Assembly (NCBI RefSeq): GCF_944393015.1
Contig: NZ_CALXYQ010000004.1
Span: forward strand, 1 to 64,000
DNA from: an uncultured Brachyspira sp.
Lineage (GTDB): Bacteria; Spirochaetota; Brachyspiria; Brachyspirales; Brachyspiraceae
DNA: 64,000 nt
Direction of reading: 5' to 3'
The notes below the pieces were generated by a model. That model did not search any database. It was given only the letters and a program-made list of their open reading frames with translations, and had not been told where the DNA came from. Each line of letters begins with the position of its first letter. The first letter of the stretch is position 1. Positions 2,754 to 21,375 of the stretch are shown in pieces. A program made the translations under genes and the position numbers.

Positions 2754-3078
2754 CCCCCACCCTTTATATTTATAGTCATAATCTGCAATTTTAATTTTCA
2801 ATTTTTTTATTATCAAATTAGAATTTAAAGCACCCCACCCTAGTTTAAAATAAATTTATAATCTACACACCGCACGGTGAGCAAAACTATAAATATTGAT
2901 TTAATTATTATTGCAAATAAATCTAGAATAAAAATTCAGCTAACCGTGCGTTTAAATAGATTCATTATCTAATCAAAACTTGGGCGGGCATGCTTTTATA
3001 AGTAAGCAAAAAAGAAAAATTAAATTATTTATTTTTAAAATAAGTAAAAAATATAAAAGGGCGGGGTATGTAATTAAA
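2754..3078. repeat. Full nested-inverted-repeat intergenic element
   Basis: The GC-rich boxes lie in mirror order: CCCCCACCCTTT (2754), GCACCCCACCCTAG (2830), CGCACGGTGAGCA (2871), ACCGTGCG (2943), AACTTGGGCGGGC (2978), AAAGGGCGGGG (3056). Outer, middle and inner boxes are each complementary to their partner, so the ~325 bp could fold as three nested stems. It ends just before the promoter of the next gene. Confidence 0.85.
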
Positions 3079-3087
3079 GCATTATAC

Positions 3088-3115
3088 TTGACTTATAATA
3101 TTTTTTGTATATAAT
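3088..3115 (+). promoter_or_regulatory. Promoter of the MATE leader
   Basis: TTGACT (3088-3093) and TATAAT (3110-3115), 16-base spacer. The predicted transcript start near 3122 gives a ~120-base leader before the ATG at 3244. Confidence 0.75.
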
Positions 3116-3117
3116 TA

Positions 3118-3230
3118 GAGATATCAATATCTATAAAAATAATAAAATTTGTCGCCGGATAAATTTTTTTAAAACGTTTGTATTCATACCGTAGGCCTTA
3201 GAAAGTATGAACACAAACGTTTTTTTATTA
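3118..3230 (+). promoter_or_regulatory. Candidate riboswitch/attenuator leader (guanidine-IV-like)
   Basis: The leader carries an unpaired-looking GTCGCCGGAT (3151-3160). It is followed by a 19-bp hairpin (AAAACGTTTGTATTCATAC at 3171-3189 with its partner 3205-3223, one mismatch) and a T tract to 3226, only 17 bases before the start codon. The loop is CGTAGGCCTTAGAAA. A terminator inside the leader of a MATE exporter, with conserved-looking GCCGG and GGCC segments able to pair, fits the known mepA/guanidine-IV arrangement. The class assignment is from memory of that motif and is tentative; the attenuator itself is clear. Confidence 0.5.
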
Positions 3231-16485: not shown

Positions 16486-16514
16486 TTTTAATATACATTT
16501 TTTTGGGGGGAATT

Positions 16515-17564
16515 TTGAAAGAATTTACAATTTTAGAAGAAAAATTGAAAGATTTTCTAGATGAATACCAAGTAATTTCATTCGATAATAAAGAATTGCA
16601 TCAAATTATAGAACAGCTCAAATCAGAAAAAGAAGAGTTAATAAACAGTTTGAAAAACGTAAAAGATAGCTTCAATATTTTAAAAGAAGAAAAAACTATA
16701 CTAGAAGCTGATAAAAGAAATGTTACTGATAATTACAATTCTATAAAAGAAGATAAAGATAATTTAATAAAACAATTAGAAGCTACTAGAATAGAGAGAG
16801 ATACTCTTAAATCTAATTTGGAAAATACAGAAAAAGATTCTATGACTTTAATAGAAGAAAATGATAATCTTAAAAAAGAATTAGAAAAAGCAATAAGAGC
16901 TATAGATTCTCTAAGCAAAGAAAATAATGAGCTTAAAGAAAAATTAAGTATTCTTATAGAAAGAATAGACAGCGTAAGAAAATCTAATTTTGAGGCTAAA
17001 AAATCTCATCATGCTTCTATGATTCATAATACAGAAAATGCTGTTCATAATGAATCAGTTAGTAACGAATCTTCTAACAATACATCTAATAATGAGATTA
17101 TTGAAGAAAAAGAGAATAAGCCATTAGAAGAACCATCTCAAGAAATTAAAGAAGAAGTAAAAAGTGCTGAGAATGTATTTGAAAGCAGTGTAGAAGAGAT
17201 TGATGAAGAAGCCCCTTTCTCATCAGCTGATGAATATGAAGAATATAAAGCTGAAAATAATGTTAATAAAAGCAGCGAGATAAAAGAAATAAAAGAAGTA
17301 AGAGAAATTTCAAATGTGAAAGTTACAGAAGATGAAGACCCTTTCAGTAATGCTTCAGATGCCAGCTGGGATAATGATATATGGGATAATGATATAAAAG
17401 AAGAACAACAAACAGAAAATAATAAAACTAATGAAGCAGAAGAAGAAAATATTGATAAAAACAGCAAAGAAGATAATTATGAATTCGATATAAATGAAGA
17501 TGATCAATATATGTTCGGCGATGATGATGAAGAAGAATTTTTCTTTGATAATGAATCAAAATAA
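16515..17564 (+). CDS. Coiled-coil protein with acidic tail, upstream of zapA
   Basis: 349 aa. Residues ~1-160 are a continuous Lys/Glu/Leu heptad coiled coil (repeats such as LKSEKEEL, NLKKELEKA, ENNELKEKL). The rest is an Asn/Glu/Asp-rich tail with a short WDNDIWDNDIK duplication. The start is the TTG at 16515, because a GGGGGG run (16505-16510) gives suitable spacing and an in-frame start at 16503 would lie on top of it. There are no membrane segments. It is 13 bases upstream of zapA and probably cotranscribed, so a Z-ring partner role similar in concept to ZapB is an inference. Confidence 0.75.
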   Translation: MKEFTILEEKLKDFLDEYQVISFDNKELHQIIEQLKSEKEELINSLKNVKDSFNILKEEKTILEADKRNVTDNYNSIKEDKDNLIKQLEATRIERDTLKSNLENTEKDSMTLIEENDNLKKELEKAIRAIDSLSKENNELKEKLSILIERIDSVRKSNFEAKKSHHASMIHNTENAVHNESVSNESSNNTSNNEIIEEKENKPLEEPSQEIKEEVKSAENVFESSVEEIDEEAPFSSADEYEEYKAENNVNKSSEIKEIKEVREISNVKVTEDEDPFSNASDASWDNDIWDNDIKEEQQTENNKTNEAEEENIDKNSKEDNYEFDINEDDQYMFGDDDEEEFFFDNESK

Positions 17565-17577
17565 TAGGTAAATAATT

Positions 17578-17919
17578 ATGGATGATATTACTATTGTAGA
17601 GGTTAATATATACGGCAGAATGCTAAGCATAAAATCTCCAGAGAGTAATGCTGAATATTTAAAAGAAGTTGCTGAATTTGTCAATGAAAGTATGAATGAT
17701 ATAGCAGAGCAGTATGGCCCTAATTATCCTAGAGATACCATAGCAATACTTGCATGCCTTAATATAGCAGACCTTTTGAAAAGAGAAATGGCAAATAATA
17801 AAGCAGGAAAAGATACATTATTAGCATTAAAAGAAAGTATAGCTTCCAGGTCTAATGAATTAATAAGACTTATAGATGAGACAAAAGAATCTAAAGAAGC
17901 CAATAAAGAAAACGAATAA
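17578..17919 (+). CDS. zapA: Cell division protein ZapA
   Basis: 113 aa. VEVNIYGRMLSIKSPESNAEYLKEVAEFVNE-type opening, then ILACLNIADLLKRE and a C-terminal helix, as in ZapA, which bundles FtsZ filaments at midcell. AGG is upstream of the ATG. It is followed by a strong bidirectional terminator. Confidence 0.85.
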   Translation: MDDITIVEVNIYGRMLSIKSPESNAEYLKEVAEFVNESMNDIAEQYGPNYPRDTIAILACLNIADLLKREMANNKAGKDTLLALKESIASRSNELIRLIDETKESKEANKENE

Positions 17920-17995: not shown

Positions 17996-19678
17996 TTATA
18001 TTCTGCTGTCCCTAAGCATATAATTAAATTGATTTCTAGTATAAACTTTTATTTTATCATTATGAGTAGCATAACTTCTTGCACTATTTGTAAGTTCAAG
18101 AGGTAAAACTAATATTCCATTTTTTGCACCTGCCTCATTAATAAGCAGCAGAAAATCTCTTATTACAAGCTCCCCTACTTCAGTATTTCTCCAGCGTTTG
18201 AAAGATATTAATGTTAAATCTTTTTTACTCTTATTCACAGCAAATGCTAAATAATTAACCTCATCTCCATAATCATAATCTATTAGCTTTTCATTATATT
18301 CCTGTACCGCAGAATATAAAAGTTTTTTCTGTATTATATCCTGACATATACTTTTAAAAGATGATAAACTTATATCAAAAATTTTATCTACTTTCTTACT
18401 GCTTACATTTTCTATAGTAGCATTATTTTCATTGATATTGCATTCTAGTAATACTTTTTCAATATCTACATTTCTTTCTATTTCTATCAAATTTAATATA
18501 GTATCTAAGCTATTAAATGAATCCTCCCATAATCTGACAGAATTTTCCCAAGATTCTATATACTGAGAATTAACATATTTTTCATAATTCTCTTTTACAT
18601 ATTTATCTTTATTATTTAATTGAATATCTCCTCTCAATTTTTTTAATTGAACTTCAGCTTTAGAAATTTCAGATAAATAAGTAAATATACTGTCCAAATC
18701 ATATATATCAAATTCAGGATCATTAAATAATCTTATATGCTCAAAATAGCTAATAGCACTGTTAATATCTTTTATGAAATAATTATAAAAAGCAAAGTCC
18801 AAAATGATAATACTTTCTTCTTTTTTTATTTCATCTATTCTATATTGCTTTGAATATTGATTATATAAGTTTATAAAAGCTTCATTATCATCTGATTTAT
18901 ATAATATATACAAATATATTCTGTTTATAAAGAAACGGTATTTAGGATCGTTTTTAATCGCTCTTGATGATAATATCGATTCTGTAAAACTTCTAGCACT
19001 GTTAATCTCATCGGTGATAATATATAATGATATCAATATCTTTTCTACCAATATAAGCTCATCATAATCATCTTCAATATTGCTTATATTTCTGCTTAAT
19101 CTTTTATGAAGCTCTTCAAGCATAGCAATAACTTTTCTATATTCTTTATTCATGAAATATGATATAGCAGCTATTTTAAGTTCATATATTTCAAAATCAT
19201 TTTTATTATTTAACACCCTATTGAAATATTCAGTAGCTAATTTATAAGCTCCTTCCCTTCCAAGTTCTGTAGCTGCTTTTATAGAATAGTATGTGTTATT
19301 AACATCTATTTGAGCTATTCTTAAAGTATATTTTAAACTTTCTTCTTTATTATCTAATTTGTTGTATAGCTCTTCTAGTTTTTTATATATATTTAATTCT
19401 TCGCCTTCAAAATATTTAATACTAAGAAGTTTTTCGTATTTCTCCAAAGCCTTCTCAGTCATATTATACTGCTCTTCTATTACAGCTAAATCATACATTG
19501 AATTATAATCTTTAGGGTTAAGCTGTATCTTTTTCTCAAGTTCTTCTATTTTCTTTTTGATATTCTTCGGTTTATATGTACTATTGTTTCCTGTTATAGT
19601 CTTGAAGAAAAAAATAAGTCCTAATAATATTGCTATAGATATTGGAACAATGACTATATAAATATAAGAGTCTAACAT
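17996..19678 (-). CDS. Membrane-anchored TPR protein with Mrr-like nuclease domain (copy 1)
   Basis: 560 aa. One N-terminal membrane helix (residues ~6-26), a cytoplasmic TPR region (LNPKDYNSMYDLAVIEEQYN and following helices), then a C-terminal ~110-residue domain like the Mrr catalytic domain: GDEVNYLAF, LTLISFKRWRNTEVGE, IRDFLLL, AGAKNGILVLPLELTNSARSYA and IKVYTRNQF. The Lys of the PD-(D/E)XK core is kept (SFKR), but the Asp of Mrr GDGGID appears replaced by Tyr. It lies 17 bases after its paralogue. Binding or cleavage of nucleic acid near the membrane is possible. Confidence 0.7.
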   Translation of the reverse strand: MLDSYIYIVIVPISIAILLGLIFFFKTITGNNSTYKPKNIKKKIEELEKKIQLNPKDYNSMYDLAVIEEQYNMTEKALEKYEKLLSIKYFEGEELNIYKKLEELYNKLDNKEESLKYTLRIAQIDVNNTYYSIKAATELGREGAYKLATEYFNRVLNNKNDFEIYELKIAAISYFMNKEYRKVIAMLEELHKRLSRNISNIEDDYDELILVEKILISLYIITDEINSARSFTESILSSRAIKNDPKYRFFINRIYLYILYKSDDNEAFINLYNQYSKQYRIDEIKKEESIIILDFAFYNYFIKDINSAISYFEHIRLFNDPEFDIYDLDSIFTYLSEISKAEVQLKKLRGDIQLNNKDKYVKENYEKYVNSQYIESWENSVRLWEDSFNSLDTILNLIEIERNVDIEKVLLECNINENNATIENVSSKKVDKIFDISLSSFKSICQDIIQKKLLYSAVQEYNEKLIDYDYGDEVNYLAFAVNKSKKDLTLISFKRWRNTEVGELVIRDFLLLINEAGAKNGILVLPLELTNSARSYATHNDKIKVYTRNQFNYMLRDSRI

Positions 19679-19695
19679 AATTTTTCCTTATTAGT

Positions 19696-21375
19696 TTAAT
19701 CTACAAAATTAGTTTTCAAAAATGAATTAAATTGACTTCTTGTATAAACTGTAATCTTATCATTATGTTTTGCATAGCTTTTTGCACTATTTGATAATCT
19801 TACAGGAAGAATCAATATACCATTTTTTGCTCCTGATTCATTTACCATAAGTAAAAAATCTCTTATTATCAGTTCCCCTACCTCTGTATTTTTCCATCTT
19901 TTTATAGAAATTAATGTTAAATCTTTTCGGCTTTTTGTTACATGATATGCCAAATAATTAACCTCATCTCCATAATTATAATCTATTACATTATCGGTAT
20001 ATTCTTGAAGTATAGAATATGATAATTTATTTTGAATCAAATTCTTACATAATTTTTTAAAATTACTTACATTCAAAGAATATATTTTATCTATTTCATT
20101 TAAATTAATATTTTTTGTGCTGTCATTTTCTCTAGCGGCATTTAATTCTGCCAATATTTTATCTATATCTATTTTATTTTCCGGATTTGGAGCATTTGAA
20201 GTGATATAATCAAATTTAATAAATGTACCCTGCCATAAACTTAATACTAATTCCCATATATCTATCAATTCAGAATCTATATATTTTTCATAATTTTCAT
20301 TTTTATATTTTTCATTATTTACTTTTCCATCGCCTCTTAATTTTACTAATTGAATAGATGCTTTATTAACTTCATTAAGATAATCTAATATTTGATCTAA
20401 ATAATAAACGCTATATTCAAGCATGTGAAAAGAATTTAATTTTTTGAAATAATTTATAGAAGTATTTATATCTTTTAAGAAATAAGCATAGAATGCAAAG
20501 TCAAATATTAATGCAGCATATTCTTTTTTAGCTTCATCTAATTTATAATAAGCTCTTAATTCATTATATTTAGAAATAAATTTATTATTATCTGAAAGTT
20601 TATATAATATGTACATATATATTCTATTAACATATAGTTTATGATCTTCACTTATATTCTTATTAGATAATATTTGCTCTAAAAATGTAATTGCTATATT
20701 AAGTTCATCTGCTGATATATAAAGAGATACAAGCAATATTTCAAGATTATAAATTTCTAATATATCTGTTTCTTTATCATTTGATATTTTCTTATATAAT
20801 TCCTCTAAAAATATTATAGATTTTTTATAATCTTTAATCATAAAAAATGACAAAGCTGCTGTTCTAGCTTCTTCTATAGTTAAATTTTCTTTTGATACTA
20901 TCACTTTATTAAAATATTCGGAAGCTAATTTATATTTACCTTCCTTTCCTAAAACATTACCTATTTTTACAGCATAGTCAATATTATTAGGGTCTAATTT
21001 AGATATCATCATAGCATATTTAAAACTATTTTCTATATCTTCAAGCTGACCGTATCCTGCCTCCATCTTTTTATATATTTCTATCTCATTTATATTATTG
21101 TCTTTAAAATATCTTTTGCTTAATAATAATTCAAATTTAGGCAATGCCCCTGTTAATTCATTATATTCTTCTTCTATAAGTGCCAACTCATATAAAGAAT
21201 CTAAATCTTTTGGATTTAAAGAAACAATTTTTCTTAGTTCATGCATCTTCTTCTTTGTATTTTTTGAAGGTTTATGAACCTTTTTATTAAATATATTTCT
21301 TATCATTATAATTGTAGATATTAATATAATAATAAATATTACTGCTGTTATAGTATATAATGTAGTATCGCTCAT
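19696..21375 (-). CDS. Membrane-anchored TPR protein with Mrr-like nuclease domain (copy 2)
   Basis: 559 aa, same architecture as the downstream gene: N-terminal membrane helix (~8-26), TPR region starting LNPKDLDSLYELALIEEEYN, and the C-terminal GDEVNYLAY...LTLISIKRWKNTEVGE...AGAKNGILI-type region with LSNSAKSYAKHNDKI. The C-terminal domains are much more alike than the TPR regions, so selection is on the Mrr-like part. It is the first gene of the pair. It is separated from hisC by ~110 bases with no clear terminator, so it could be cotranscribed with hisC. Confidence 0.7.
   Translation of the reverse strand: MSDTTLYTITAVIFIIILISTIIMIRNIFNKKVHKPSKNTKKKMHELRKIVSLNPKDLDSLYELALIEEEYNELTGALPKFELLLSKRYFKDNNINEIEIYKKMEAGYGQLEDIENSFKYAMMISKLDPNNIDYAVKIGNVLGKEGKYKLASEYFNKVIVSKENLTIEEARTAALSFFMIKDYKKSIIFLEELYKKISNDKETDILEIYNLEILLVSLYISADELNIAITFLEQILSNKNISEDHKLYVNRIYMYILYKLSDNNKFISKYNELRAYYKLDEAKKEYAALIFDFAFYAYFLKDINTSINYFKKLNSFHMLEYSVYYLDQILDYLNEVNKASIQLVKLRGDGKVNNEKYKNENYEKYIDSELIDIWELVLSLWQGTFIKFDYITSNAPNPENKIDIDKILAELNAARENDSTKNINLNEIDKIYSLNVSNFKKLCKNLIQNKLSYSILQEYTDNVIDYNYGDEVNYLAYHVTKSRKDLTLISIKRWKNTEVGELIIRDFLLMVNESGAKNGILILPVRLSNSAKSYAKHNDKITVYTRSQFNSFLKTNFVD

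Follow-up and report, generated by a model that had tools for sequence, protein, structure and literature searches.

Two tandem genes, here called P1 and P2, were found in the window (the whole 64,000-nucleotide stretch of Brachyspira DNA that was analysed) to encode membrane-anchored TPR proteins ending in an Mrr-like PD-(D/E)XK domain, and judged from its sequences the family to which they belong is a pseudonuclease family. Architecture, fold, loss of the catalytic triad, phylum-wide distribution and co-distribution with FliG are computed results; from the positive-inside rule we infer a cytoplasmic topology, and we further infer a scaffold role and a link to flagella or the envelope. Our best explanation, for which we see roughly even chances, is that P1 and P2 would be core inner-membrane TPR scaffolds that use the dead nuclease fold to bind protein or DNA, with a link to flagellum or envelope assembly.

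Architecture and fold of P1 and P2

The anatomy of the two proteins (membrane helix, TPR, Mrr-like fold) is well supported. The genes are separated by 17 bp between the stop of P2, the upstream one, and the start of P1 (Table 1), and their products share 51% identity over 531 aa. The nearest named relatives of both are from Brachyspira species. The initial annotation, made from the sequence alone, had proposed one N-terminal membrane helix, a TPR solenoid and an Mrr-like C-terminus for each protein, and hydropathy, AF2 and Pfam bear this layout out. Each has a single N-terminal hydrophobic helix and no second hydrophobic window. In the full-length AF2 model of P1 (31 relatives, mean pLDDT 84), residues 2-29 form a helix and residues 40-350 helical repeats; a linker of lower order then leads to an alpha/beta domain at 429-554. 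Tandem helix-turn-helix repeats, as in a TPR solenoid, are thus present in P1 according to the AF2 helices, and TPR proteins are the top fold matches when the whole model is compared with the PDB by Foldseek. At the sequence level, a PDB search returned TPR and designed repeat proteins and nothing else, and the Pfam TPR models gave only marginal matches in P1 and P2.

Table 1. Coordinates of P1, P2 and their domains in the window.
Feature	Position	Strand	Details and evidence
P1, membrane-anchored TPR protein with C-terminal pseudo-Mrr domain	17996..19678	(-)	560 aa; ORF, Mrr_cat, AF2 model
P2, tandem paralogue of P1	19696..21375	(-)	559 aa; ORF, Mrr_cat, identity to P1
P1 N-terminal transmembrane helix, residues 2-29	19592..19675	(-)	AF2 model, Kyte-Doolittle, K/R count
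P1 TPR-like alpha solenoid, ~residues 40-350	18629..19561	(-)	AF2 helix pairs, PDB fold matches
P1 pseudo-Mrr PD-(D/E)XK domain, residues 429-554	18017..18394	(-)	Pfam, AF2, Foldseek, hhalign; N475, S492, K494
P2 pseudo-Mrr domain	19717..20097	(-)	Pfam, alignment; catalytic positions N473, S490, K492

The nuclease part had also been described as the best conserved between the paralogues, which agrees with the 62% identity of the last ~140 residues, versus 51% overall. Its kinship to Mrr, first seen by eye, was recovered in profile comparisons: the Pfam model Mrr_cat (PF04471) matches P1 with 34.2 bits and P2 with 33.0 bits, above its cut-off of 21 (the genome search gave 37.8 and 36.7 bits), and hhalign aligned a 41-sequence family profile to E. 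coli Mrr with a probability of 97.3% (E=2.8e-11). The model NA-iREase1 (PF22722) gave a weak cross-match to P1 and P2 below its cut-off (E 0.0013-0.0048). Folded alone by AF2, the C-terminal domain of P1 reached a pLDDT of 90.8 and a pTM of 0.87, and after a short leading helix its elements follow the order helix-strand-strand-strand-helix-strand-helix-strand-helix. This element order, together with the best Foldseek matches in the PDB (RPB5, MspJI, EndoMS and AspBHI, with RPB5 1dzf at the top, E 8.6e-5), identifies the alpha-beta-beta-beta-alpha-beta core of the PD-(D/E)XK fold, so the structure prediction, like the profiles, upholds the nuclease-fold assignment.

P1 and P2 therefore share the fold and the order of conserved segments with Mrr (PF04471), a type IV restriction endonuclease, but differ from it in lacking the D-(E/Q)-K triad and the Mrr N-terminal domain, in place of which they have a membrane helix and a TPR solenoid. 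The N-terminal domain of RPB5, the closest structure to the P1 domain, has the nuclease fold too and plays a structural part in eukaryotic RNA polymerase; the likeness is structural, and RPB5 is a soluble polymerase subunit with neither TPR nor membrane helix. In NA-iREase1 (NACHT-associated inactive restriction endonuclease) the Mrr-like domain is likewise inactive, but no NACHT ATPase is present in P1 and P2.

Loss of the catalytic triad

The register at the active site was taken from homologues that keep GDGID, from the true Mrr proteins of two genomes, a Brachyspira (G003) and a member of the same order (G026), and from the hhalign alignment to E. coli Mrr, in which GDEVNYL is aligned to GDGGIDG and ISFKRW to VQAKRW. 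The true Mrr proteins aligned with the family read D-Q-K, as does E. coli Mrr. The position of the catalytic Asp of GDGGID is occupied by N475 in P1 and N473 in P2, that of the Gln/Glu by S492 and S490, and the catalytic Lys is retained (K494 and K492). The initial annotation was thus right about the Lys, whereas its replacement of the Asp by Tyr was a register error and is rejected, as the Tyr is the next residue, one past the catalytic position, in these alignments.

With two of the three catalytic positions lost in both proteins, the D-(E/Q)-K triad of an active Mrr is absent, and it is found in none of the 41 aligned members. These come from many families and include both T. pallidum-like paralogues (TP0916 and TP0471) and the Borrelia homologue, which we take, numbering by gene order only, to be at the BB0261 position. 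The suggestion of a nuclease effector is accordingly unsupported, both for the pair and for the homologues sampled in the phylum. Brachyspira members mostly read N-S-K at the triad positions; in one ortholog group, which includes B. pilosicoli, Asp is found at position 475 (D-S-K). Most other lineages have D-x-R or N-x-R, and the Borrelia and Treponema-type sequences D/E, then R or V, then a non-basic residue. Other residues are conserved instead across the 41 members, namely R495 (36/41), G502 (34/41), E503 (32/41), R507 (31/41), G521 (37/41) and A533 (38/41). A fold that is kept while its active site is lost suggests a domain that binds or has a structural function.

Distribution in Spirochaetota and association with flagella

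A first profile of the C-terminal domain had matches in 296 of 393 Spirochaetota genomes, and a broader one in 327 of 392 (129 of 152 genera, uncorrected), the latter set consisting of Spirochaetota genomes with a completeness of at least 90%. Such a spread does not fit the view of the pair as a local defence oddity. Outside Brachyspira, the open frames that were inspected share the architecture of P1 and P2 and span ~440-590 aa. In a T. pallidum-like genome (1,139,633 bases), two copies are present: one is assigned to TP0916, since it lies directly before MgtE and TP0917 is MgtE (PMC7112178), and the other to TP0471, with which its coordinates agree (PMC10013896). In the sources searched, the family goes unnamed and uncharacterised: NCBIfam yielded no model for it, and a literature search on BB0261, TP0916 and Mrr-TPR fusions retrieved no functional description. 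All 25 Brachyspira genomes examined carry the family. A role in defence, as initially suggested, is unlikely given this near-universal presence in the phylum, and the search of PADLOC models gave no match at E<=1, nor was any phage match found for the family. On the same grounds, with the near-universal presence in both genus and phylum, a defence island or mobile cargo was rejected.

The presence of the family closely follows that of flagella, which places it probably with the envelope or motility machinery and not with defence. Of the 392 near-complete genomes, 335 contain FliG_C. The two genome lists were compared by eye, and the totals are consistent with 10 genomes having only FliG and two having only the family. 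Both family-only genomes (G386 and G403) turned out to carry ordinary Mrr genes (frames of 298 and 182 aa with GDGGID and QCKRY/QAKRW), and one of the FliG-only genomes (G245) contained, on re-search, a family member in a 448-aa frame with a membrane helix and TPR-like repeats. After these corrections, 326 genomes have both, nine only FliG, none only the family and 57 neither. The nine FliG-only genomes carry FlhA as well, so the family is dispensable for flagella, as nine flagellated genomes have no detectable member.

All 20 FliG-negative genomes listed are members of a single family, f49 (by inference, the non-motile coccoid Sphaerochaetaceae). Phylogenetic independence is therefore low, and one loss may account for much of the co-distribution. 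This leaves a real, though less than even, chance that P1 and P2 represent a housekeeping gene of spirochaetes lost in f49 for reasons other than flagella, such as genome reduction or the loss of an elongated shape, as MreB is also absent in 19 of the 20 f49 genomes tested. However, in the remaining one (G325) MreB is present while FliG, FlhA and the P1/P2 family are all absent, a pattern that mildly favours a flagellar link over one to MreB-dependent shape. This genome, without FliG or FlhA, has three MreB genes in tandem (G325:C1:255274-258349).

Topology, gene neighbourhoods and possible role

The orientation of the proteins in the membrane was predicted with the positive-inside rule. The P1 helix (Kyte-Doolittle mean 2.87) has no K/R before it and six in the 20 residues after it, and family-wide two to nine K/R are found in the 20 residues past the helix in nearly all members, with few having any before. 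Unless the rule fails here, P1 and P2 would be N-out/C-in, with the TPRs and the pseudo-nuclease facing the cytoplasm because of this clustering of K/R after the helix. A predicted cytoplasmic soluble part argues against DNA uptake at the cell surface, another role raised initially, since a function on the outer face then becomes unlikely. It also argues against a periplasmic collar protein. FlcA (BB0326) and FlcB (BB0058) are spirochaete TPR collar proteins of the periplasmic flagellum (PMC8609358), and the TPRs and the distribution of our family brought an identity with FlcA, FlcB or FlcC into consideration. This was rejected: the collar proteins are periplasmic, FlcB having a signal peptide, whereas P1 and P2 are predicted to be cytoplasmic and have a pseudo-Mrr domain, and in the search with the NCBIfam model FlcA_CTERM the homologues scored 25.7-34.4 bits, far under the cut-off of 300, with no match for P1 and P2.

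In the scaffold explanation, the single N-terminal helix would hold each protein in the inner membrane, the cytoplasmic TPR solenoid would recruit partners, and the dead Mrr-type PD-(D/E)XK domain would act as a module that binds protein, DNA or both, comparable to the dead nuclease-fold domain of RPB5 in RNA polymerase. Most likely the solenoid and the dead nuclease fold would offer two binding surfaces on one membrane anchor, and the scaffold would most probably build or place the envelope structures that accompany periplasmic flagella. A bolder version, which we put forward tentatively and regard as somewhat unlikely, is that a pseudo-restriction-enzyme has become part of the core biology of Spirochaetota as an unrecognised, cytoplasm-facing inner-membrane scaffold for periplasmic-flagellum or envelope assembly, from Brachyspira to Borrelia (BB0261 position) and T. 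pallidum (TP0916 and TP0471). The family is widely conserved in spirochaetes, the causes of Lyme disease and syphilis among them, and joins a recognisable but dead restriction-endonuclease domain to a TPR scaffold anchored in the membrane; if the flagellar link is true, it would point to a spirochaete-specific component on the cytoplasmic side of the periplasmic flagellar system. Mrr_cat matches in spirochaete genomes should not be taken automatically for restriction systems.

The neighbours of the family vary between spirochaete families, as expected of an old core gene. In Borrelia and three further families (genomes G193, G374 and G377), the gene and one encoding an Hsp70-like/LysM protein (BB0260 position) are divergent, and an SLT gene follows the latter; the Borrelia copy is thus two genes from an SLT gene homologous to BB0259. 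In B. burgdorferi, BB0259 (SLT) was shown experimentally to be a lytic transglycosylase needed for the hook of the periplasmic flagella to cross the cell wall (PMC8517470). The protein that combines an Hsp70-like segment with a LysM domain at its C-terminus is a conserved neighbour in several spirochaete families (L113:3918-4961(-), L149:3154-4320(+) and L094:4290-5297(-)), and its Borrelia version had no match in Pfam. In another genome (G148), the gene lies ~3 kb from a cluster resembling, by eye, FliG, FliH, FliI and FliJ. The Brachyspira copies are outside any flagellar operon. A gene judged by eye to be FtsK-like is near the Borrelia and G193 homologues, and in one large clade (L100:5824-6750(-), L109, L110 and relatives) a gene with a ParB N-terminal domain (ParB_N) comes next, with NrnA-like and STAS-like genes nearby. 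Within the window, P2 comes after a histidinol-phosphate aminotransferase-like gene, and P1 is convergent with zapA, which adjoins it, and a coiled-coil gene. At 16503-17919(+), the coiled-coil gene lies directly upstream of zapA, with a 13 bp gap, and encodes a protein whose C-terminus is highly acidic; it remains next to P1 in many Brachyspira genomes. As a conserved partner, zapA was rejected, since this neighbour changes even within Brachyspira (B. innocens group).

These surroundings bear on the idea of a membrane-tethered DNA binder, in which the dead nuclease would tie the chromosome to the inner membrane without cutting it, for segregation, nucleoid positioning or division. The Mrr-type fold, the zapA, FtsK-like and ParB_N neighbours, and the basic C-terminal domain of P1 (pI 8.6), P2 (9.5) and Borrelia (9.4-9.7) would suit such a tether, but the neighbours are not constant, and the domain pI, which drops to 4.9-5.6 in several members and spans 4.9-9.7 in all, argues against a uniformly conserved DNA-binding surface. 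The distribution, moreover, tracks flagella, which are not needed for chromosome segregation, and we consider the tether unlikely.

The layout of P1 and P2 also recalls E. coli LapB/YciM, in which a membrane helix is followed by TPRs and a small C-terminal domain. By this analogy, the family would be an N-out anchored cytoplasmic TPR adaptor that delivers substrates to a membrane protease or to an assembly complex. The order of the parts is shared, and the Borrelia homologue matched the LapB models with E 9e-10, but with 38 bits against a cut-off of 363, and P1 and P2 had no match to these equivalog models. The similarity is generic to TPRs, as MamA and PrsT match too, and the C-terminus of LapB is a rubredoxin, unrelated to the PD-(D/E)XK domain. 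The family is also present in Borrelia and Treponema, genera that to our knowledge lack LPS, and a LapB-like role appears improbable. Least credible of all is an active, atypical nuclease in Brachyspira, using K494 with D472/E473 for defence or DNA uptake: these residues are nearly invariant across the Brachyspira alignment and the B. pilosicoli group has its Asp at 475, but the genus has Ser in place of Gln/Glu and mostly Asn in place of Asp, the Lys is lost elsewhere, no defence context or PADLOC match was found, and all 25 genomes of the genus carry the family. With K494 and the acidic D472/E473 retained, a small chance of residual activity in Brachyspira nonetheless persists.

Another Mrr-like ORF was seen as well: in G193, three equal-scoring copies of a 316-aa Mrr-like ORF lie within 20 kb (G193:C1:1928815, 1944499 and 1947281), probably a repeated mobile or restriction gene. 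The tandem pair reflects an expansion within Brachyspira: genomes of the genus have one to three family copies in tandem, many with a further separate copy, against one or two copies in most of the other spirochaetes examined. A third paralogue is located elsewhere in the source genome (L001, G000:C15, ~2900-3130, minus strand). There, a stop comes after the membrane-helix start MVYIILSAIVLLILIIKKNS, and beyond a short A-run the remainder is read in a different frame, owing to a sequencing error, decay or phase variation; this frameshifted copy is the only helix-less member of the family. Interrupted copies, with in-frame stops or split frames, are also found beside intact paralogues in several Brachyspira genomes (G019:C1:1538946-1540562, G015:C3:143374-144912 and G010:C45:15526-17215).
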